A DNA stretch of 25,965 nt from a virus, in the IMG/VR virus record IMGVR_UViG_3300010885_013691, positions 1 to 25,965 of that record; one strand, written 5' to 3'. The notes under the pieces were generated by a model. That model saw nothing but the letters and a program-made list of their open reading frames with translations. It ran no database searches and was not told where the DNA came from. Numbering within the stretch: position 1 is the stretch's first letter; every line of letters begins with the position of its first letter. Made by a program: the position numbers and the translations under genes. Shown piece after piece: positions 6,057 through 19,177 of this stretch.

Positions 6057-9000
6057 ATGGCTGAACTTTATAGCAATCCACCCAGAGAAGTTGCTCTGGG
6101 TGGTCCGTTGGCATTTAATGGCCAACAGCAATCAGAAGAACAGGCGTTTCTGGCTACGTTGAACCCAGAAGAACGTGCCGCCGCGGAAGCCGAACTTGCC
6201 GCGCCTATCACGGGAGACGAGTTGGCCGACATTATGTCGCAGAACCCGCGCTATAAGCCGACCTATGAGGAGTATGGTCTGTATAAGGACTGGATGAAAA
6301 AGAAGGAAGTAGACGTCATCGGAGCGTTTACTGATGGTTTTGGTCAGGTCCTTAATGACCTTAGCAACGCCGTTTCTGCTGGATGGGAAGCCGACGACAA
6401 GTTGGCCAAGGCCCTGCCTACTGTCTTTGAAGGTTTCGCCCGTGGCACCCGTGACTTTTATGGCATGCTGGCTCAGTCTCAGGACCCGAACAGCGTCTTG
6501 TTCAAGTTCAAGAATGTCCTCATGGGAGATGGCTCTGACCCTGAGGCTGAATACAAGCAGTTCCTTGAAGCGCGTGAGTTCAACGCGACTTCGATGGACA
6601 TTATGGGAGGCAAACTTAACGCCTCCCAACTTGCTGGCATCCAGATTGACCCAAGCATGGTCATTCCTGAGGTCGCTCAGGCGCTCTCTTACATCGCAGA
6701 CCCTACCCTATTCATCCCTGCTGGTGCCGTCGGCGCCGTTGCTAAGGCTGGAGCCAAGGCTATCGGGGCTGGTCACTTTGCCGAGAAAATCATCGCCGCG
6801 GCTGGTCGTGCTTCGGTGATGAAGGACCTCGTCATGGGCGGTGCCCTGCGCGTTGCAGGCACCCCTCTTGAGTTTGTTGGTCGTGCCGTCAGCGGAACTA
6901 TTGATGGTGCCGTATCCCGTGGCTCTGGCCTCTTTGGCGACCTTGTTGGCATGACGCCGCAGGCATTTGAACAGACAGTAAAGGGTGCTGGTCTTGCTGG
7001 AACTGCTTTCCGAGTTCCGGGTTTGTCCATGGTTTCTGACGCTTATTACGTTGGCAACGCCGCCGCGGGAGTTGGCGAGACATTAGGTGCCGTTGGACGC
7101 CAGATAATGAACAAGCCGCGAGGCATCCTTTCGTATGCTGGTCGCGCTCTTAAGGAGGAGGCCGCTCACCTTAGTCCTCAGGCCAAGCGCATGCTTCAGA
7201 TTATCGACACAGTCGACCCTGTCTTTGGCTATGCTTATGCCGCCGCCGAAGGAGCCATTGAAGGCTCTATCATCGGCGCTGGCCTTGGTGGTCTTGCTGG
7301 CGGGCTTGAAGGTGCCGCCGCTGGCGCTGGTTCTGGTTCCGCGCTTGGCGCTATTGGTGGCACAATCGGCCGCGGACTTACGGACGTCGTAAAGGAACAC
7401 ACGCGTATTCAAGCCGACATGGTCATTGAGGGTCTTAAGGATACAGACCAGACACAGCATGGCGCAATGACGTTGCTCCGTCAACTTGGTCAAATCCACG
7501 ACAAGTCTTATGACCATATTATCGTGGGTCTTGATACTGTGGCTCCGGGCGCCCGTCTGCACATGCACGACGGCGCCTCTTTTGAGGCTTACCTTCAGCA
7601 GAACAAACTCGTCGACAAGTTTGACCCTGACCGCAAGAACCGCATCACACGCGGTGAGGACCCGAAGAACCCAACGATGTATCATCAATGGGAAGGGTTT
7701 GTCATTCAGGAAACCGCTGGCCACGCCACGGACATTTACATCAACACGGATTGGGCCAGCAAGAACGCCATCGGACATGAACTGTTCCATGGCATCATGC
7801 GTTCGTCCGTCCACGCCAAGAACTTCACCGACGCAGTCCGTCGCTCGTTCATCGGCGAACGCGGTCCTAACGGAGAAGTCCTCAAAGGCGCTGAAGTCGC
7901 TCCCGCTGAAACGCATGAGATGTTCAAGCGCTACATTGAGGCTGAATACAAGGACCCTGCTTCGCGCAAGGCAAAGATGGACCAGTTGGATGCGGCCATC
8001 AAGGAGTGGGAAACTAAAGGTAGCCTCATCTCTGAGTCTGGACTCGAAGGACGTGCTGTTCTTGAAAATCTGTCAGAGGAGTTCGGTGCTTACTACTTCA
8101 ACCATTGGCTCGATGACCAGCCGCCTGACTATCTTTTCTACGGCGGTAAACTTCCGGGCCTTCGTGGCGTAATCGAGAACGTCAAGTTGGGCTGGCTCGA
8201 CTGGACTGAAGCCCGCCTTAAGAGTTCTACCAACGGCTTTGATTTTAGTAAAGAAGTCATCGACGCTCAGACAGGCAAGCCTCGCAAGGCTTACCTTGAC
8301 GAAGTGTTTAGGCCCGGAAGTGGCCGCGTAAAGCGCTCCTCGCTTGAATACCTGATGCGTGACCTTGTGCGCGCGGCCTCGGGTGTTGAGCGTGGTGACA
8401 TTATCGACCTTAACGGAATGACGCCTGAACAGCGTGGGCGCTTCATGGATGTTCATGGACTTGATGGTTTGTTCCGTCGCGACCCTGCTGGTGGCGCCCG
8501 TGAAACCTCTGAGGCTCAAATGCGCCGCGAAAACCAAGCGCGCGTCAAGGGTATCATTGACGTCCTTGGAACCATGCAGGCTACTGACCGCAGTTCTAAG
8601 ACCATTACTCAGACCGACGGAACCATTAGCATTGTCGGAAACCTAAACGACGCAGAACTTGGACAGATTGTTCGCGCTGGTCACATGACTCAAGCGCTTG
8701 CCGACAAGTATGCCATGTTCCGCAAGATTAGCGAAAACAAGGGCAAGACCGACAACGTCGTTCAGGTCAACTATTGGGGTGAAACCTTTGAAAGAGGTTC
8801 TGGTGCCTCTCCTCGCCGCGCTCGTCGCGGTGCTGGCGACGCCGTTCCAATGACGCGTCGAGTCCTTGTGCCGTTTGGCATGGAAACGGAAATCGTCCTC
8901 AAGCCTAATGGCGACTTTGTCCTCGGATTACGTTCTGCTTCCCTTGACTACAACAACCTCCAGAAGCGCAGTCAGGCCGTATATGACCAGCCGCAGGCCC

Positions 9001-12000
9001 GAGCGCTCTACAACAACGACTACAACTCGTTCCAAGCGGACTTCTACCGCTACCTTCAGAACCTTAGCGACCCTAATGCTATCCCATCCGCTGACCTTTT
9101 TGGTGGCGGTGCTGACGGCGCGGCAAAGCGCAACTTCTTCCACGAAGTCGTAGGCGCCGCTTTACGTCAGGGTGAGGCTCACACCAACGCGCCCCGTCAG
9201 GGCTTTGCTGGAGCCTCTGGTCGTGGAGAATACTTTGTGTATCAGACGCTCCGTTTGGACCGCATGAGCCACGTCACAGTCCGTCCCCATACTGTTCCTT
9301 ACGACCATACTGTTGCCTACGATGGCCTGCGTCTAAACAAGAAACCGCACGAACTTCCGCAGGAGTCAACTCCCAACGGGACTGTTTACAAGCATCCTCT
9401 CGGCTACAACATCATTAAGAGCGGAGCCAAGGTTAAGGTCTATGACCGAAGCAACGAACTCGTAGGAGTTCATGACTCTGTTGAGTCCGCTTCCAATGCG
9501 GTCACGGCTCATAGCGACAGGGTTCATGCCAACCTTACCGAGAAGATTGCCGAGCCTTCTGACTACGCTATCAAGAACGCTGGCAATGGAACCTTTGATG
9601 GTTCTTACAGCGAGACGCGTGGAACCCTTCCCATCAACAAACTTTCTGGCGGCGTCCGCCTTACGGACCCCACCGAACGCGCCAAGGTTGATGCGCTTAA
9701 ACAGAAGATGCAGGGCAAGGATGGATACATCCAGCGCATCATTGTAGACCAAGAAGGCAACGTAATCGAAGGCCAGCATCGCCTTGAAGCCATGCGCGAA
9801 CTTGGGATGAAAGACATTCCTGCCATCATCCTTACCGAGACAATGTCTAAGATGCCAGACGCCAAGCAACTTCTTGAGAAGTTCAAGGATGCCTCTGGAC
9901 TACGTCCTGAACAGTCCCGTCAGATGGTTGAGCATGCCATCAACATCATTGGCAAGGAAGGCGTCCGAGCGCTTAAGAACTATTCCATGCCCGACGAGTT
10001 TGCTGGCGCGTGGAAATCTCTTATTCGCATGATGGATAAGGAACGCGCACCTGACGTCAGCCTTAAGCCCGTAGAAAGCCCTGAAGGCAATTCGCGTCGA
10101 GACTTTGCAGATGCCCGCGATGAAGTTGCATTTAAGCGCTTTGCAAAGGGGACCGAGATTGTCGACCCAGCAGACGACGCGGCCTCTTACATTGACGTTT
10201 TTGGTAACATGGCACCGCTTCCAAGCGGAACGGCAAGTTCCAAAAACCTGATGGGAAAAACATTCTCAAAGGGCGGAACGTTTTTTGCTTATCATGGCTC
10301 TACAAGCCGCCGCCGCTTTGGAACGCTTCGCACAGAACTAACACCAGAACAGTCGTATTGGGCGCGCAAAGGTAGCACAGACTCCTCAATGGGAACTCAT
10401 TATACCAATGACGAGGTCCTTGCGACAAACTTTACGTTACGCAAAATCGACAAAGATGGCGCTGGTTATGCTTGGCGTCGTGACAAAGACGGAGATTTTG
10501 AAACCTCAGGTCCAAGCGGTAAGGGTGGACAGTTGTATAAAGTGGCCGTTCGGATGGATAGCCCGTTCTACTTTGACAACGAAGTAACCATGAAGTTGGA
10601 AATTGATGCCGCAGGCGGCGCCGAAAAGTTAAAGGAAAAACTTAAAGAGATGGGTCATGATGGCATCATCTACCGCATTGAAGCCGAAGTCCGCGACCAG
10701 CAGAAAAAACTGCGTGGAGATTTTGGCGTTAAAGATGCTCCTGATTTTGCCAACCAGTATCTGATGGAAGATGTGTTTGGCTACATTCCCTTCGACGCCA
10801 AAAAAGTAAAGGACGTCGAAAACAACAAGGGCACCTATGACCCTAAGAGCGACCAAATCAACATGAAGCCCGTTGAGGAAGGCGCCAATCCTCCTCGTAG
10901 CATCAAAGAACTCGTCGCCGAACAGGGCGCTAACTTTGACCCTAAATCTCTTGTTGGCTCCATCATCCGCTATAACGCTGACCGAACAGGTGAGACGCCT
11001 CAATACTCGCGCATCCTTGATTACGGACAGAACAAGAACGGCCACTTCTTTAAGATTATCAAGGAGGACGTTTATCAGGAAATCCTAAGCAACAGACTTA
11101 CTGGACGAGCCCTTGACATGGCAATCAAGGATGCAACCAACATGTTTGGTGGTAACAAGAATGAGCCTTACAAGACTGTTCCAGAACTGACCAAGTGGCT
11201 TGGACGTATCTACGATGAAGCCCAACTACCCAAGGAAGGCGCTGAAGCCGCGGCTCCCGTCCGTCCTGTTCTTGACAACATCGACGTTCAGAAGATGCGT
11301 GACACGCTTACCGATGCCGAAAGCGTAATTGATGGCGTAGACTTTGGAAAGGAAGCCAGCACCATCCTTTACGGGAACAAGTCTGGCTCTAAGAAGGGCG
11401 CCATGAAGTCGATGAACGAGGCTATGGATGCCTTTGAAAAGGCTACTACCCCTGAGGCCCGACAGGAAGCCATCCAGCAAATCCAAGAGGCTGTTGAAGA
11501 AATCACGCAACTGCGCGATGAACTTCAAGATACGCAGGACCGCTCTGAGGCGTTTGAGAACACCGAAGGATACCAGCGTCGCGAAGCCCAGATTGAAGCG
11601 CTTGATGAAGCCGTCCAGTCTTTTGAGGACGCCCTGACGCCCGACGAACCTGACGCTGGCACCGCTACCCCTGACGCACCGCGAGCCAGCATGAAGCCCT
11701 ACGAGGGCAATGCTGATGAGATGCCTAATCAGAACATGCCGTCTGAAGTGTTTAGCGTCCTTGAACGTGCCAACGGACGGACACCTGAAGAACTAAAAGA
11801 ACGTAGTGAAGAACTACGTCGCCTTGGCATGAAGAACCCTGCTGTTGCGGCTCTTATGACTGAGGTTGAAAGGCTCAACAAGTTGCTTCCAAGCGGAAAG
11901 AGTGGAGGCATGACGTTGGACTTTGCCGACCTTATCACGCGACTTTCAAACAAGTTTCGCAACTCAGCAAAAGACCCGTCTGGAAACATCGTCGATAGCG

Positions 12001-14042
12001 GAGGCTATGTAGACTATCAGAGTTTTGGCATCAACGACTTTAGCGAGTTAAACAAGACGTATCGCGGAGTAATTAACGAGATAGCCACGCGACTCATTGA
12101 CCTTAACAAGATTTACGCAAGGTGGATTACTGACCAGCAACGTTCTCCAACCCGTCCTATGGACGCCTCAAGTTTGCGCGGCGTAGGCGGTGTAGATTTG
12201 GAAACAAAAATGACGAAGTTGAACGAGGAGTTGAGCGCCCTTCGTCACGCTATGGCTGTTGCCAAAATACCTATCTCTGTTCGTCAGATGGTTCACGCTA
12301 TGTCAATGGGAGGAAGGATGCAAAAGATTACTTCGGGCGCCGTTGCGCATCCGAACGGAGGTCTTGATGCGTTGCACACAAAAAACAAACACCTGTTGTT
12401 TGCAGACCAAGCCTACATTAGCGGGTTACATCCCGGCCGAGAACCAGTCACGCATTTCATGATACTTGCCGCTTGTGAGGTTCAGGGCGGAATGGATGGC
12501 GCTACTGCCAACATGTATCGAAGGATGCTTACCACTCCGACACTCAATAGTCGTGGTTCTGTTTATTCCAATGTGCCAAGCAAGCCGCTGTTGCTTGAGG
12601 AGGCAAGTTTCAAGGGTGGCTCAATGCACTACTCTCAGAACAAAGAGGGCATCAACATCCCTATCTCTGGCTACACATACCTTCCCGAACTGGGCCTTAG
12701 AAATGCCACCTCAATTTCGGACAAAAATCTACGAGTTCACTCAGGACAAGATACGTTTGCTGGCGTAATGCTACATGAGATTGGACACTCTTGGCAACTT
12801 GACCGACTTGACTCTGTTCGTCGTGGAAGCACTACATTCCTTAACCGAGCAAATCAGGGAGGAGAGATTAAGAGACTTGCCGTTAATGACGTTGAAAGAA
12901 ACATGGGGGCCTTCCTTCGTCATGAACCTTATGAGGTTAATGGATTAACAATAAAAGCAGACCATGACGGAGTTGCTTGGTTTGACGGAGTTAATCTTTG
13001 GTTAGACTACTTTGAAACAAACCCCAAAGCCATGCGCGATGTAGACATGGCTTTGCTTACCAAACTTTGCGTCGCAAAGTTCTGGAAAGAGTCGGCTCAA
13101 AAAGTTCTTAAAGACCCAGCCAATCCTAAAGACGGAACGATTTGGCAATACTACAAGAAAACCAAGTTAATTGGTGTTCAGAACAACAGCCGTTCCTCTA
13201 ACAAGGGTATTTATCATTGGTCTACGATGGCTGAGTTCATGACAGGCATCCACACCAACGTCGCGCAGATGAAGGACTTGGCCAAGATTGACAGGGTTGA
13301 CATGGGCAAGGCTCAAGCAATTTTTGACTTTGTTAAAACCGAGATAATGAAGTCTGCGGGCCAGAACAGCGCCGCTTATCAGAACGCTTTTGCTCAGGGC
13401 CTTGATTACGCAAATACGGCAAACGGAATTAGCACAGGCGACCCCAAGGCTTTTGCTCAGATTACGGACATTATGGTAGCCATGATGATTGCTACATCTG
13501 GCGTCCGCCCCGAGTCGATTGGAGAGGGTTCATTTAAGGGTGGAGGTGCGTATAAAGCCGCCAGCGGTAAGTCTAATGCTCCTCCGACTGGCCCGCCTGC
13601 TGGCGGCGCCGCACCTGCCCCCGCACCTGCACCAGCGCCTGCACCAGCGCCCGCCCCTGCCCCTGCCCCTGCACCAGCCCCTGCGCCTGCACCCGCGCCA
13701 GCGCCAGCCCCTGCACCAGCACCTGCCCCCGCCCCTGCGCCTCCTCGGCCAGCCCCTGCGCCTGCTCCCGTTCCTCCGCCCCAGCCAGCCCCTGCTCCCG
13801 CACCAGCGCCTGCGCCTAACCCCCTGCCCGGAAATCCGAACAAGCAACCGCCTATCATCTGGCGCTCTTGGACAAATGATACTACCGAAAACGGCTCTAT
13901 CTTCAAAAACGCCGTGGGGTATAGCATCGTCTACCTTGCAGGTAAGAAGTTCAGGCTCTACAACCCTCAGAACGCGCTCATGGGCATCTACAATGACATT
14001 GAGGAAGCCAAGAAGCGTGTCCGTCGAGACGAACCAAAGTGA
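6057..14042 (+). CDS. Giant polyvalent virion protein (2 x HExxH, ParB-like, ART-like)
   Basis: 2661 residues. Order: hydrophobic and Gly-rich segments (about 200-240 and 400-440) suited to membrane insertion; a metallopeptidase-like HELFH at 574-578 with a downstream Glu pair at 674-675; a 47-residue module at 1107-1153; a ParB/sulfiredoxin-like domain about 1190-1265 with G-Q-H-R at 1239-1242; an ADP-ribosyltransferase-like domain about 1405-1600 (YHGS at 1412-1415, a GHDGIIYR block, and GTYDP at 1592-1596, as in ART-PolyVal domains); a coiled coil about 1788-1858; a second HEIGH site at 2240-2244; a Pro-Ala tract about 2516-2592; and a second copy of the module at 2612-2659. This mix is the hallmark of polyvalent proteins, which accompany phage DNA into cells. 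As third gene of the ejection cassette it is likely packaged and ejected. Activities are inferred from motifs. Confidence 0.8.
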   Translation: MAELYSNPPREVALGGPLAFNGQQQSEEQAFLATLNPEERAAAEAELAAPITGDELADIMSQNPRYKPTYEEYGLYKDWMKKKEVDVIGAFTDGFGQVLNDLSNAVSAGWEADDKLAKALPTVFEGFARGTRDFYGMLAQSQDPNSVLFKFKNVLMGDGSDPEAEYKQFLEAREFNATSMDIMGGKLNASQLAGIQIDPSMVIPEVAQALSYIADPTLFIPAGAVGAVAKAGAKAIGAGHFAEKIIAAAGRASVMKDLVMGGALRVAGTPLEFVGRAVSGTIDGAVSRGSGLFGDLVGMTPQAFEQTVKGAGLAGTAFRVPGLSMVSDAYYVGNAAAGVGETLGAVGRQIMNKPRGILSYAGRALKEEAAHLSPQAKRMLQIIDTVDPVFGYAYAAAEGAIEGSIIGAGLGGLAGGLEGAAAGAGSGSALGAIGGTIGRGLTDVVKEHTRIQADMVIEGLKDTDQTQHGAMTLLRQLGQIHDKSYDHIIVGLDTVAPGARLHMHDGASFEAYLQQNKLVDKFDPDRKNRITRGEDPKNPTMYHQWEGFVIQETAGHATDIYINTDWASKNAIGHELFHGIMRSSVHAKNFTDAVRRSFIGERGPNGEVLKGAEVAPAETHEMFKRYIEAEYKDPASRKAKMDQLDAAIKEWETKGSLISESGLEGRAVLENLSEEFGAYYFNHWLDDQPPDYLFYGGKLPGLRGVIENVKLGWLDWTEARLKSSTNGFDFSKEVIDAQTGKPRKAYLDEVFRPGSGRVKRSSLEYLMRDLVRAASGVERGDIIDLNGMTPEQRGRFMDVHGLDGLFRRDPAGGARETSEAQMRRENQARVKGIIDVLGTMQATDRSSKTITQTDGTISIVGNLNDAELGQIVRAGHMTQALADKYAMFRKISENKGKTDNVVQVNYWGETFERGSGASPRRARRGAGDAVPMTRRVLVPFGMETEIVLKPNGDFVLGLRSASLDYNNLQKRSQAVYDQPQARALYNNDYNSFQADFYRYLQNLSDPNAIPSADLFGGGADGAAKRNFFHEVVGAALRQGEAHTNAPRQGFAGASGRGEYFVYQTLRLDRMSHVTVRPHTVPYDHTVAYDGLRLNKKPHELPQESTPNGTVYKHPLGYNIIKSGAKVKVYDRSNELVGVHDSVESASNAVTAHSDRVHANLTEKIAEPSDYAIKNAGNGTFDGSYSETRGTLPINKLSGGVRLTDPTERAKVDALKQKMQGKDGYIQRIIVDQEGNVIEGQHRLEAMRELGMKDIPAIILTETMSKMPDAKQLLEKFKDASGLRPEQSRQMVEHAINIIGKEGVRALKNYSMPDEFAGAWKSLIRMMDKERAPDVSLKPVESPEGNSRRDFADARDEVAFKRFAKGTEIVDPADDAASYIDVFGNMAPLPSGTASSKNLMGKTFSKGGTFFAYHGSTSRRRFGTLRTELTPEQSYWARKGSTDSSMGTHYTNDEVLATNFTLRKIDKDGAGYAWRRDKDGDFETSGPSGKGGQLYKVAVRMDSPFYFDNEVTMKLEIDAAGGAEKLKEKLKEMGHDGIIYRIEAEVRDQQKKLRGDFGVKDAPDFANQYLMEDVFGYIPFDAKKVKDVENNKGTYDPKSDQINMKPVEEGANPPRSIKELVAEQGANFDPKSLVGSIIRYNADRTGETPQYSRILDYGQNKNGHFFKIIKEDVYQEILSNRLTGRALDMAIKDATNMFGGNKNEPYKTVPELTKWLGRIYDEAQLPKEGAEAAAPVRPVLDNIDVQKMRDTLTDAESVIDGVDFGKEASTILYGNKSGSKKGAMKSMNEAMDAFEKATTPEARQEAIQQIQEAVEEITQLRDELQDTQDRSEAFENTEGYQRREAQIEALDEAVQSFEDALTPDEPDAGTATPDAPRASMKPYEGNADEMPNQNMPSEVFSVLERANGRTPEELKERSEELRRLGMKNPAVAALMTEVERLNKLLPSGKSGGMTLDFADLITRLSNKFRNSAKDPSGNIVDSGGYVDYQSFGINDFSELNKTYRGVINEIATRLIDLNKIYARWITDQQRSPTRPMDASSLRGVGGVDLETKMTKLNEELSALRHAMAVAKIPISVRQMVHAMSMGGRMQKITSGAVAHPNGGLDALHTKNKHLLFADQAYISGLHPGREPVTHFMILAACEVQGGMDGATANMYRRMLTTPTLNSRGSVYSNVPSKPLLLEEASFKGGSMHYSQNKEGINIPISGYTYLPELGLRNATSISDKNLRVHSGQDTFAGVMLHEIGHSWQLDRLDSVRRGSTTFLNRANQGGEIKRLAVNDVERNMGAFLRHEPYEVNGLTIKADHDGVAWFDGVNLWLDYFETNPKAMRDVDMALLTKLCVAKFWKESAQKVLKDPANPKDGTIWQYYKKTKLIGVQNNSRSSNKGIYHWSTMAEFMTGIHTNVAQMKDLAKIDRVDMGKAQAIFDFVKTEIMKSAGQNSAAYQNAFAQGLDYANTANGISTGDPKAFAQITDIMVAMMIATSGVRPESIGEGSFKGGGAYKAASGKSNAPPTGPPAGGAAPAPAPAPAPAPAPAPAPAPAPAPAPAPAPAPAPAPAPAPAPAPPRPAPAPAPVPPPQPAPAPAPAPAPNPLPGNPNKQPPIIWRSWTNDTTENGSIFKNAVGYSIVYLAGKKFRLYNPQNALMGIYNDIEEAKKRVRRDEPK
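13602..13830 (+). repeat. Pro-Ala low-complexity tract in the giant gene
   Basis: About 75 residues alternate Ala and Pro almost without interruption, coded by mixed GCN and CCN codons. Such tracts form stiff, extended linkers. It joins the second metallopeptidase-like half to the C-terminal 47-residue module. The synonymous-codon variety argues for selection on the protein sequence and not simple recent slippage. The opposite strand carries a long Gly-Ala frame that is only its shadow. Confidence 0.9.
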
Positions 14043-17150: not shown

Positions 17151-17318
17151 TTAGCGGGAAGATTTGATGCGATGTTCGATAGCGGCGCGAACTAATTTAG
17201 AGCGCGTTGTCTTAACGCGTTTTGCCTCGGCGTCCATTAGCGCGAGGAGTTTTTTGGGCAGGCGGACAGTCAGCATTTTTTCGGACAGCGGCGCGTCCTT
17301 GGCGAGTAGTGTGTTCAT
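17151..17318 (-). CDS. Ribbon-helix-helix (Arc/CopG-like) DNA-binding protein
   Basis: 55 residues. The layout is textbook RHH: a short strand (KMLTVRLP, residues 14-21), helix A (KKLLALMDAEAKRV), turn (KTTRSK) and helix B (LVRAAIEHRIKS). RHH dimers insert a two-stranded sheet into the DNA major groove at short palindromes. The ATG at 17318 overlaps the TGA of the transglycosylase gene by four nt (ATGA) and the ERF ATG comes 2 nt after its TAA, so it is clearly part of the operon. Likely a phage regulator or operon autoregulator; the TGTA-N-TACA dyads near the right-arm promoters are candidate sites (inference). Confidence 0.8.
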   Translation of the reverse strand: MNTLLAKDAPLSEKMLTVRLPKKLLALMDAEAKRVKTTRSKLVRAAIEHRIKSSR

Positions 17319-17839
17319 TTGGCGTAGAGAAGAAGAAAAGCCCTTGCAAGAATACGACGACGCGTTTCAGGAAGGAAGGGGTTGGAGTGTTGGTGGCCAT
17401 AGCGATTGGCACCTTTGATACCAAGGTTGTAAGACATGTAAAGAGAAATCTTCGTCGGAGTTAAACCCATCTTCAACTGACGTTCTTCCAGCCAGCGGAG
17501 GTGTTCCTGCGCCACGACGTAAGACTTCTTCCAATCAAAGCAGTTGGCCTTGCCGTAGGCATAGGACTTGGGGATGTGCCCGAACAGGCGCCGCACCGAG
17601 TCGTCCCAACTTGCGCGGTGCATCTGGAAGGCGCCAAGCGCCAGCCCAGAGTCTCCGATGGCGGCGGGGTTGACGTTGCTCTCAATCTGGGCAACCTTCA
17701 TAAGCAAGCCATCGTCGACCAAGGACGCCGCGGAAAGGGGGAGGGACGCCAGCAGTAACGCTGGCGCCCCTGTTGATGCTATGCAACCCGCAAGGCTCAA
17801 CAACACCCTGCGAAAGATAGATTGGGGTTTGTATGTCAT
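17315..17839 (-). CDS. Lytic transglycosylase / lysozyme-like endolysin
   Basis: 174 residues. N-terminal basic segment and hydrophobic stretch (about residues 10-37, with LLSLAGC and SLPLSA) resemble a signal peptide, with a lipobox-like LAGC. The catalytic part starts LLMKVAQIESNVNPAAIGDSG, with Glu at about 53 as the likely catalytic acid, then LGAFQMH, as in soluble lytic transglycosylases; a Tyr/Asn motif (ISLYMSYNLG) follows as expected. It would cleave peptidoglycan for lysis or entry. It is coded in the middle of the replication operon, four nt overlap on each side (ATGA with DnaC-like and RHH genes), while holin and spanin candidates are on the plus strand. Whether it is exported, membrane-anchored or signal-arrest is uncertain. 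Confidence 0.7.
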   Translation of the reverse strand: MTYKPQSIFRRVLLSLAGCIASTGAPALLLASLPLSAASLVDDGLLMKVAQIESNVNPAAIGDSGLALGAFQMHRASWDDSVRRLFGHIPKSYAYGKANCFDWKKSYVVAQEHLRWLEERQLKMGLTPTKISLYMSYNLGIKGANRYGHQHSNPFLPETRRRILARAFLLLYAK

Positions 17840-18516
17840 CTGTCAAGCCCTGCCCCGATGAGGGTATAGTAATCCTTGAACCGACGGATTAGCGCCGTGG
17901 CCATCTCCTTGTCGTCAAACCTATCCGCAAGGCTTTGACTGTTGAAGTTCGTCGTGATGATAGTCGGCCGCATGGCAGTCGTGCGCTCGTCAAGGACGGC
18001 AAACAAGTCAGACGTCAAGCGCGGCGTGGCCCGCTCCTTGCCCAAATCGTCAAACACAAGGACGTCAATCTTGGTCAGGTCGTCCAGCATGCGGGCGTGA
18101 GCCTTCTCGCCAAAGGACTCCTCAATGAGCCCCTCAAACTTACGCATCGTTAGAAACTGATAGGGCATGTTCTTATCGCGCGCGGCCTTCTCGGCCCATA
18201 AACGATTAAGAACATACCACGCGGCGCGCGTCTTGCCTACGCCCGTGGTCCCGTGAAGTAGCAGGCCAGACTTGGAGTCCTTGGGCGACCAATCGACGGC
18301 CGACTGCAAGCGCGGATGTAACTTGTCTACCGACGTGTCGCGGAATAAGGCTGGGTAAGACGGGATGAACTTGGGCATCTGATAGCCCTCCGCGGCAAAG
18401 CGGGCTTGGTCGTAATGCTCTCGGCACTTGTGGTAGCGGACCAACTTGCCATCGGTATTGACGCCGAGGACACAGCGCTTGCCACAATGGCAGGCTATCG
18501 TAAAATCAGAACTCAT
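17836..18516 (-). CDS. DnaC-like ATPase (replicative helicase loader)
   Basis: 226 residues. An N-terminal Cys cluster (Cys9, Cys11, Cys15, then Cys31, with His34) suggests a small metal site. Walker A is at about residues 86-95 (HGTTGVGKTR), Walker B in LVFDDLGKE, then sensor 1 (IITTNFN) and a terminal Arg pair (LIRRFKDYY) as in AAA+ loaders of the DnaC/IstB family. Such proteins bring the host replicative helicase to the origin. It follows the winged-helix initiator (11-nt overlap), the order known from lambda O-P and DnaD-DnaC phage modules. No helicase or polymerase gene is visible in the window, so it probably loads the host helicase. Confidence 0.85.
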   Translation of the reverse strand: MSSDFTIACHCGKRCVLGVNTDGKLVRYHKCREHYDQARFAAEGYQMPKFIPSYPALFRDTSVDKLHPRLQSAVDWSPKDSKSGLLLHGTTGVGKTRAAWYVLNRLWAEKAARDKNMPYQFLTMRKFEGLIEESFGEKAHARMLDDLTKIDVLVFDDLGKERATPRLTSDLFAVLDERTTAMRPTIITTNFNSQSLADRFDDKEMATALIRRFKDYYTLIGAGLDR

Positions 18517-19177
18517 CGTGGTCTTTCTTGGTTAAGGCTTTGGCGGGCATCTTGCCCTTGCGAACGGGGAACAAGCCCCTCCATCCGTTGCGGATAGACG
18601 TCTCGATACACTCGACAGCATCGTGCGCCGACATGGCGTTGAGGAACTCCAACTGCCCGACGTAGGTCAAGTAGGGGACCTTGCGCTTAGGGAAGGCATA
18701 CTGAACCCAGCGATGCCATGCCGCGGAGAACTCGGGAACAGTCATGTGCGCTGGCTGTTGGGTGAGCATAAAGTCAGGCGTCTTTGGTGCCCTCTCCCCT
18801 TGTATCTTATCCTCTTTATTATCTTCTTTGTTATATGGGTGCAGTTTTCTGCGGGGGCCCCCCGCAGATTTCTTCACCCCTCCCCCGCAGATTTCTGCAC
18901 CCCCCAAGGCGATGCTCTCGACTGTGCGGATGATGCGGCGCCCCTCAACCTCGGTGCGCTGGATGATACCGATGGCATCCAACTCCGCGAGGAGGACCTG
19001 AACGCCCCTCTCGCTGACGCCCAGAAGGCGTTGGAGGTAGGCGTTGGAGGCGTAGCACCCGTCGTCCCCGTCCAAGCCCGCCACGACCCCGTAGAGGATT
19101 TTAGCGGACGTGGTCAGGTTCGTGTTATTGAACACCGCGGAGGGTATCCAGACTCCTGTGAACTTGGGCTCACTCAT
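18506..19177 (-). CDS. Winged-helix replication initiator
   Basis: 223 residues. Residues about 1-85 form a winged helix: LTTSAKILYGVVAGLD, then CYASNAYLQRLLGVSERGVQVLLAELDAIGIIQR and a wing RRIIRTVESIA, as in phage O/DnaD/RepA-type initiators. Residues 92-125 are a Gly- and Lys/Glu-rich linker coded over the origin-like repeats. The C-terminal part holds a helical module with Trp (AAWHRWVQYAFPKRK) and ends KKDHDEF. It would bind the repeats in its own gene and hand over the helicase loader coded next. Start ATG at 19177 overlaps the upstream stop by four nt (ATGA). The family is clear by architecture; the C-terminal domain is not identified. Confidence 0.8.
   Translation of the reverse strand: MSEPKFTGVWIPSAVFNNTNLTTSAKILYGVVAGLDGDDGCYASNAYLQRLLGVSERGVQVLLAELDAIGIIQRTEVEGRRIIRTVESIALGGAEICGGGVKKSAGGPRRKLHPYNKEDNKEDKIQGERAPKTPDFMLTQQPAHMTVPEFSAAWHRWVQYAFPKRKVPYLTYVGQLEFLNAMSAHDAVECIETSIRNGWRGLFPVRKGKMPAKALTKKDHDEF
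18800..18905. other. Candidate phage origin: AT-rich stretch plus three 23-bp-spaced repeats
   Basis: Three 12-bp cores lie at 18841-18852 (GCAGTTTTCTGC), 18864-18875 (GCAGATTTCTTC) and 18887-18898 (GCAGATTTCTGC). Their starts are exactly 23 bp apart, about two helical turns. The outer two cores are dyads. Flanks are C-rich, and core one is in inverted orientation relative to the others. An AT-rich stretch (about 18800-18836, beginning TGTATCTTAT) lies directly next to them. Repeats plus AT-rich DNA inside an initiator gene is the lambda O arrangement. This is read directly from sequence; origin activity is inference. Confidence 0.7.

Follow-up and report, generated by a model that had tools for sequence, protein, structure and literature searches.

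A putative phage replication origin formed by an iteron array within a winged-helix initiator gene, with half-sites that covary with the recognition helix

The window analysed here, that is the whole 25,965-bp stretch of a virus record, carries on its minus strand a gene for a replication initiator followed by a gene for a helicase loader. Three dyad repeats (iterons) and an AT-rich element are located inside the initiator reading frame, in the part that encodes a linker between two predicted domains. Domain limits were taken from an AlphaFold2 model obtained with a 53-sequence family alignment. The features are the following:

18506..19177, minus strand: replication initiator gene P0001, 223 residues, an open reading frame encoding an HTH_36 winged helix, a linker and a helical C-terminal domain
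18905..19177, minus strand: winged-helix DNA-binding domain, residues 1-91 (AlphaFold2 model)
18971..19012, minus strand: recognition helix, residues 56-69 (AlphaFold2 model), with candidate specificity residues 57, 60 and 61 (covariation)
18779..18904, minus strand: linker, residues 92-133, predicted to be disordered (pLDDT below 50, AlphaFold2) and bearing the putative origin DNA
18886..18899, minus strand: iteron 1, the first on the gene strand, TGCAG AAAT CTGCG
18863..18876, minus strand: iteron 2, the weakest and degenerate, TGAAG AAAT CTGCG
18840..18853, minus strand: iteron 3, with flanks inverted relative to iterons 1 and 2, CGCAG AAAA CTGCA
18800..18836, minus strand: AT-rich presumed unwinding element of lowest duplex stability, ATATAACAAAGAAGATAATAAAGAGGATAAGATACAA, 12-bp periodic, encoding the peptide YNKEDNKEDKIQ
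18509..18772, minus strand: C-terminal helical domain, residues 136-223 (AlphaFold2 model)
17836..18516, minus strand: DnaC/IstB-like AAA+ helicase loader gene (PF01695, 8.6e-12; phrog_50, 6.9e-24)

P0001 matched the Pfam profile HTH_36 (PF13730) with an E-value of 2e-8 and 34.3 bits, above the cut-off of 25, and the PHROG profile phrog_678, 'replication initiation O-like', with 2e-12. Both profiles were also matched by 53 of 53 family members, HTH_36 at E ≤ 0.1 and phrog_678 with a best value of 2e-27. The repeat cores and the AT-rich stretch encode residues ~92-125, within the predicted disordered linker, and helices follow C-terminal to it, in line with the preliminary description of this DNA, which had placed the repeats in the codons of a linker between the winged helix and a C-terminal module. 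The C-terminal helical domain is presumed to contact the loader or the helicase.

The loader reading frame begins 11 bp ahead of the end of the initiator frame (an overlap of 11 bp) and thus follows directly, as had been described. A P-loop reading frame homologous to the loader adjoins the initiator in 44 of the 53 family members by a crude rule that takes the reading frame directly after the initiator. The loader of the window is AAA+/DnaC-like (phrog_50, IstB) and in this differs from lambda P. Upstream of the initiator and on the same strand, Pfam and PHROG profiles revealed an exonuclease VIII-like gene and RusA; together with the initiator and the loader they make up the usual phage replication/recombination cluster. 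An SLT transglycosylase gene (17315-17839; Pfam SLT, 1.2e-7) lies in this cluster, directly downstream of the loader, and a single open reading frame of 2661 residues lies at 6057-14042 on the plus strand.

The 12-bp cores of the three repeats are found at 18841-18852, 18864-18875 and 18887-18898, with start-to-start distances of 23 and 23 bp, exactly as first reported. In the two outer cores the GCAG/CTGC arms are perfect, and in the middle core a single pair is broken, which also bears out the earlier count of two perfect dyads. The repeat is better described as a 14-bp unit on the gene (minus) strand, with 5-bp arms and a 4-bp A-rich centre, and the array then extends over 18840-18899. Outside the cluster, TGCAGN4CTGC with at most one mismatch occurred at chance level (three isolated one-mismatch matches in the whole window), and the same search across the whole window showed no second dyad cluster near a gene start. 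When codons were permuted with the protein unchanged (synonymous shuffling, 2000 trials), dyad-array scores of 20.9 ± 1.1 were obtained versus 26 observed, and 1 of the 2000 shuffles reached 26. The flanks within 18837-18902, read on the gene strand, are G-runs for iterons 1 and 2 and C-runs for iteron 3, which creates large 21-bp inverted repeats; the orientation of these flanks varies across relatives. DnaA boxes, searched for as TTATNCACA, had no match anywhere in the window. The GC skew did not show a clean flip at 18.85 kb, which is uninformative for a fragment of 26 kb whose genes switch direction.

The AT-rich element is located directly beside iteron 3. Positions 18800-18836 are 78% AT in a gene of 42% AT, and by nearest-neighbour stability the least stable 30-, 36- and 40-bp windows of all 25,965 bp start at 18797-18806 (region 18797-18836), whereas for 50-bp windows another place (2325) is less stable. 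The AT-rich stretch noticed earlier beside the cores thus corresponds to the lowest-stability 30-40 bp of the contig. In the relatives, the element has a 12-bp period of roughly (ATAAYAAAGAAG)2, encoding the peptide NKEDNKED. Its codons, when compared to those of the N-domain in the same genes, were GAT for Asp in 124 of 124 versus 94 of 205 cases, AAA for Lys in 113 of 132 versus 55 of 185, and AAT for Asn in 69 of 91 versus 68 of 210. This AT-biased codon choice points to selection on the DNA. Three distant initiators with 23-32% identity (L043, L040 and L180, the latter from Oceanospirillum phage GJ44) have a TATAACAAAGAAGATAACAAAGA-type element or a YNKEDNKE peptide beside quite different repeats.

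Relatives were collected from IMG/VR and GTDB genomes and comprised several hundred loci, 254 of them distinct by N-domain and linker when analysed. The last viral genome scan was nearly saturated, and a scan with the C-domain (closer relative set) added no more than two N-domains of this type. No match was obtained for DNA similarity to cultured phages; the relatives from cultured phages are distant, as are those from plasmids. The best array of three dyads downstream of each winged helix was selected with a detector that did not use the protein sequence, and 173 loci passed the filters. This detector gives a best triple for any sequence, and in distant clans without Arg57 the triples were often low or ambiguous; those clans therefore entered only the all-clan statistics. 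In 48 of 52 family members the array was significant at p ≤ 0.05 over synonymous shuffles, in the other four it was not. Among 144 strong arrays, a 4-bp centre was best in 133, and dyad spacings were mostly 23/23 or 22/23. The half-site letters, however, vary by subfamily (TGCAG, TGCAA, TGCGG, GGCAA, GGAAA, GGAAG, CGAAC, GCCGA, TGAAA and others). Conservation of the repeats in related phages, which the preliminary description had proposed as a check, therefore holds for number, spacing, dyad form and place and not for the letters, which covary with the recognition helix. Loci with an identical half-site at site 1 carry it in one of two reading frames (GGCAA 8 versus 8, TGCAA 7 versus 7, TGCAG 3 versus 4), which indicates that the DNA and not the peptide is conserved; the linker peptide itself differs widely among relatives. 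Two loci (L030:3001-3647 and L035:3001-3647) measure 647 bp as compared to 693 bp in close relatives of L035, with 46 bp, corresponding to two repeat units, missing and the frame shifted. This is either an assembly collapse of near-identical iterons or a real recombination between iterons.

Mutual information was calculated between the half-site bases and 90 N-domain columns for 46 representatives of the Arg57 clan and, in an additional run, for all clans. With z-scores that are not corrected for phylogeny and for which the rank among the 90 columns serves as control, residue 60 ranked first for half-site position 1 (z 15.8, 1.03 bits, the next of the 90 columns reaching 8.3; Arg57 clan), residue 57 ranked first for position 2 (z 21.6; all clans) and residue 61 ranked first for position 5 (Arg57 clan). 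Positions 3 and 4 were not cleanly followed by any single residue. Arg57 was accompanied by G at position 2 in 81 of 82 loci, compared to 3 of 91 loci without Arg57. Arg or Lys at residue 60 went with G at position 1 in 42 of 43 loci, and Gln60 with T or C in 36 of 36. The sole exception to the residue-base rule is L040, which has a weak array call. On a tree calculated from the N-domain columns without the recognition helix, the residue-60 class, the base-1 class and the joint state each change nine times. Nine independent pairs were counted on the best tree and two on well-supported branches alone, both concordant. In the closest switching pair, L017 and L018, the N-domains are 90% identical, the helix differs at residues 56, 60 and 62, and the half-sites are GGCAA and TGCAA, respectively. 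As a small held-out test, two N-domains that came to light only once the rule had been formulated (L471 and L472) both fit it. Such covariation of the letters with the recognition helix is stronger evidence for binding by the initiator than unchanged letters would have been, and on this basis it is almost certain that the initiator of the phage itself binds the three repeats.

Taken with the AT-rich element and the loader gene, the array is very probably a phage replication origin embedded in the initiator gene, lambda-like in layout and likely mechanism, although no homology of the initiator to lambda O could be detected. In this model, dimers of the winged-helix initiator would bind the three dyads (half-site TGCAG, with an A-rich centre of 4 bp and a phase of 23 bp) via the recognition helix, and the array of bound initiators would open the 37 bp of AT-rich DNA alongside. 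The C-terminal domain would then help the DnaC-like product of the next gene to load the replicative helicase. While binding is deduced from the covariation, the filling of the array by dimers, the opening of the AT-rich element and helicase loading by the loader are proposed by analogy with lambda, SPP1 and the RepA_N and RepC plasmids.

The same dyads could be initiator binding sites that act as an operator, for autoregulation or as an in-gene roadblock, and not as an origin. Dyads bound by winged-helix proteins are often operators, and the covariation speaks for binding and not for which function follows. The array, however, lies well within the gene and beside the least stable DNA of the contig, the codons of the relatives at the AT-rich element are AT-biased, the loader gene comes next, and the window has no second dyad cluster near a gene start. 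An operator function in place of an origin is therefore improbable. Still less probable are hairpins formed by the inverted repeats in the initiator mRNA, as an attenuator or for translational control. The stretch in the window folds strongly as RNA (−39.6 kcal/mol, z −3.05), but any dyad array folds. The pairing partners are not kept either, being sites 1 and 3 in the window and in L003 and neighbouring sites in L014, and of the 111 imperfect pairs 25 are G.T, a share close to the 2 in 12 that equal frequencies of all mismatch types would give. Such hairpins would also leave the covariation with a DNA recognition helix unexplained, and the RNA-structure reading was rejected since the pairing differs between relatives. 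That the repeats result from selection on a Gly/Lys-rich flexible linker peptide, with no role of the DNA, is hardly credible, as the linker is indeed predicted to be disordered but its peptide varies widely in relatives, the same DNA dyad occurs in two frames and the array is lost on synonymous shuffling.

The origin reading can be compared to several known systems. The term lambda-type, used in the preliminary description, is appropriate for the layout and the likely mechanism, with a winged helix, iterons in a disordered linker, an AT-rich element, a C-terminal module and the loader next, but not for sequence kinship: hhalign of the family alignment against a single lambda O sequence gave a probability of 0.3%, a result compatible with remote homology, and P0001 had no match to PF04492 (Phage_rep_O) at E ≤ 1. 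The repeats of the window also differ from the four ~18-bp iterons of the lambda O family. The lambda origin is located inside gene O, where dyad iterons are bound by initiator dimers and an AT-rich element of 38-40 bp lies directly beside them (PMC3349717, PMC5043065). The window shares the position in the initiator gene, the dyad iterons and the adjoining AT-rich element, whereas lambda has four 18-bp iterons at 20, 24 and 23 bp and the window three 14-bp dyads (4-bp centre) at 23 and 23 bp. In SPP1, gene 38 codes for the initiator G38P and includes oriL, which has repeats and a DUE that is AT-rich, and a separate loader, gp39, acts with G38P (PMC6316719). As judged by the published description alone, SPP1 resembles the window in the origin within the initiator gene and in the separate loader; its repeats, unlike the dyads of the window, are described as direct repeats.

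The nearest solved folds to the predicted winged helix were RepA_N initiators (4pql, 4pt7 and 5kbj, Z 8.9-8.1, including a Rep-DNA complex). The best match had Z 8.9 over 82 residues at 3.2 Å, other winged helices reaching 7-8, and this is taken as similarity only. P0001 did not match RepA_N (PF06970) at E ≤ 1, and this family was not among the 25 most frequent of the 43 families matched by family members. In RepA_N iterons, inverted repeats converge on a poly-A tract (PMC7145576), and the pSK41 origin lies inside rep, encoding a dispensable linker (PMC5703833). Inverted-repeat iterons, an A-rich tract and, for pSK41, the origin inside the rep gene are thus features in common with the window. 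In PLE satellites the RepA_N domain and its origin are known to change together as whole alleles, with the C-domain unchanged (PMC8263062); unlike in the window, the PLE origin is intergenic, and the covariation concerns two allele groups and not residue-base positions. By sequence profile, RepC is the nearest initiator to the N-domain after HTH_36, with PF03428 matched in 52 of 53 family members (best 4.3e-8) and NF040974 in 22 of 53, whereas P0001 alone gave an E-value of 0.042 for RP-C (PF03428), which fell short of the cut-off. The nearest relatives are therefore RepC by sequence profile and RepA_N by fold. In repABC plasmids oriV is located inside repC, where iterons were not detected, and silent changes in an A+T-rich region of oriV abolish replication (PMC3155836). 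The window has the place of the origin in common with these plasmids, but not the lack of iterons. An iteron origin embedded in an initiator gene is thus a kind already known, to which the present data add family-wide initiator-site covariation and natural chimeras. In the literature searched, largely outside subscription journals, we found no description of a residue-to-base code or of gene-embedded origins for the HTH_36 family.

The chimeras were recognized by different identities in the two domains. Between the window and L062, identity is 75% for the N-domain and 33% for the C-domain, and the half-site is identical; between the window and L004 it is 46% and 81%, respectively, and the iteron differs. 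Likewise, L014 and L026 have 75% identity in the N-domain and 98% in the C-domain but different iterons, and L013 and L019 have 95% and 56%, with half-sites that agree. Across these pairs, the iterons are inherited with the N-domain and not with the C-domain, which is exchanged independently of both. The conserved AT-rich element between the two domains may be the natural crossover place. We propose, tentatively and with slightly less than even confidence, a residue-to-base code in which residue 57 reads position 2, residue 60 position 1 and residue 61 position 5, together with an origin cassette, made up of the N-domain and the iterons, that can be swapped relative to the C-domain by recombination, probably at the AT-rich element. 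This would let phages switch replicon type, for instance in escape from incompatibility or from origin-directed attack such as that of the Odn nuclease.

In every genome of the family, a single gene holds both the DNA-binding domain and the target of that domain, so that sequence data by themselves provide hundreds of natural initiator-site pairs. They would yield a recognition code for winged-helix initiators and would locate origins of uncultured phages without experiments. The natural chimeras would allow a test of the evolution of origin specificity where protein and site share one reading frame and have to change jointly.

Finally, initiators with unrelated N-domains among L449-L486 (for example L450, L452 and L461) share a C-domain with the motif 'AWxxWxxYRKExKKPL...GWQGLFEP'. 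Many of these loci have short-period AT-rich simple repeats just before the C-domain, in the ~150 bp ahead of the matched part, such as (GGATAA)n in L461 and L463 and CCATAAA-like repeats in L473. It may be that a periodic unwinding element moves together with the shared C-domain.
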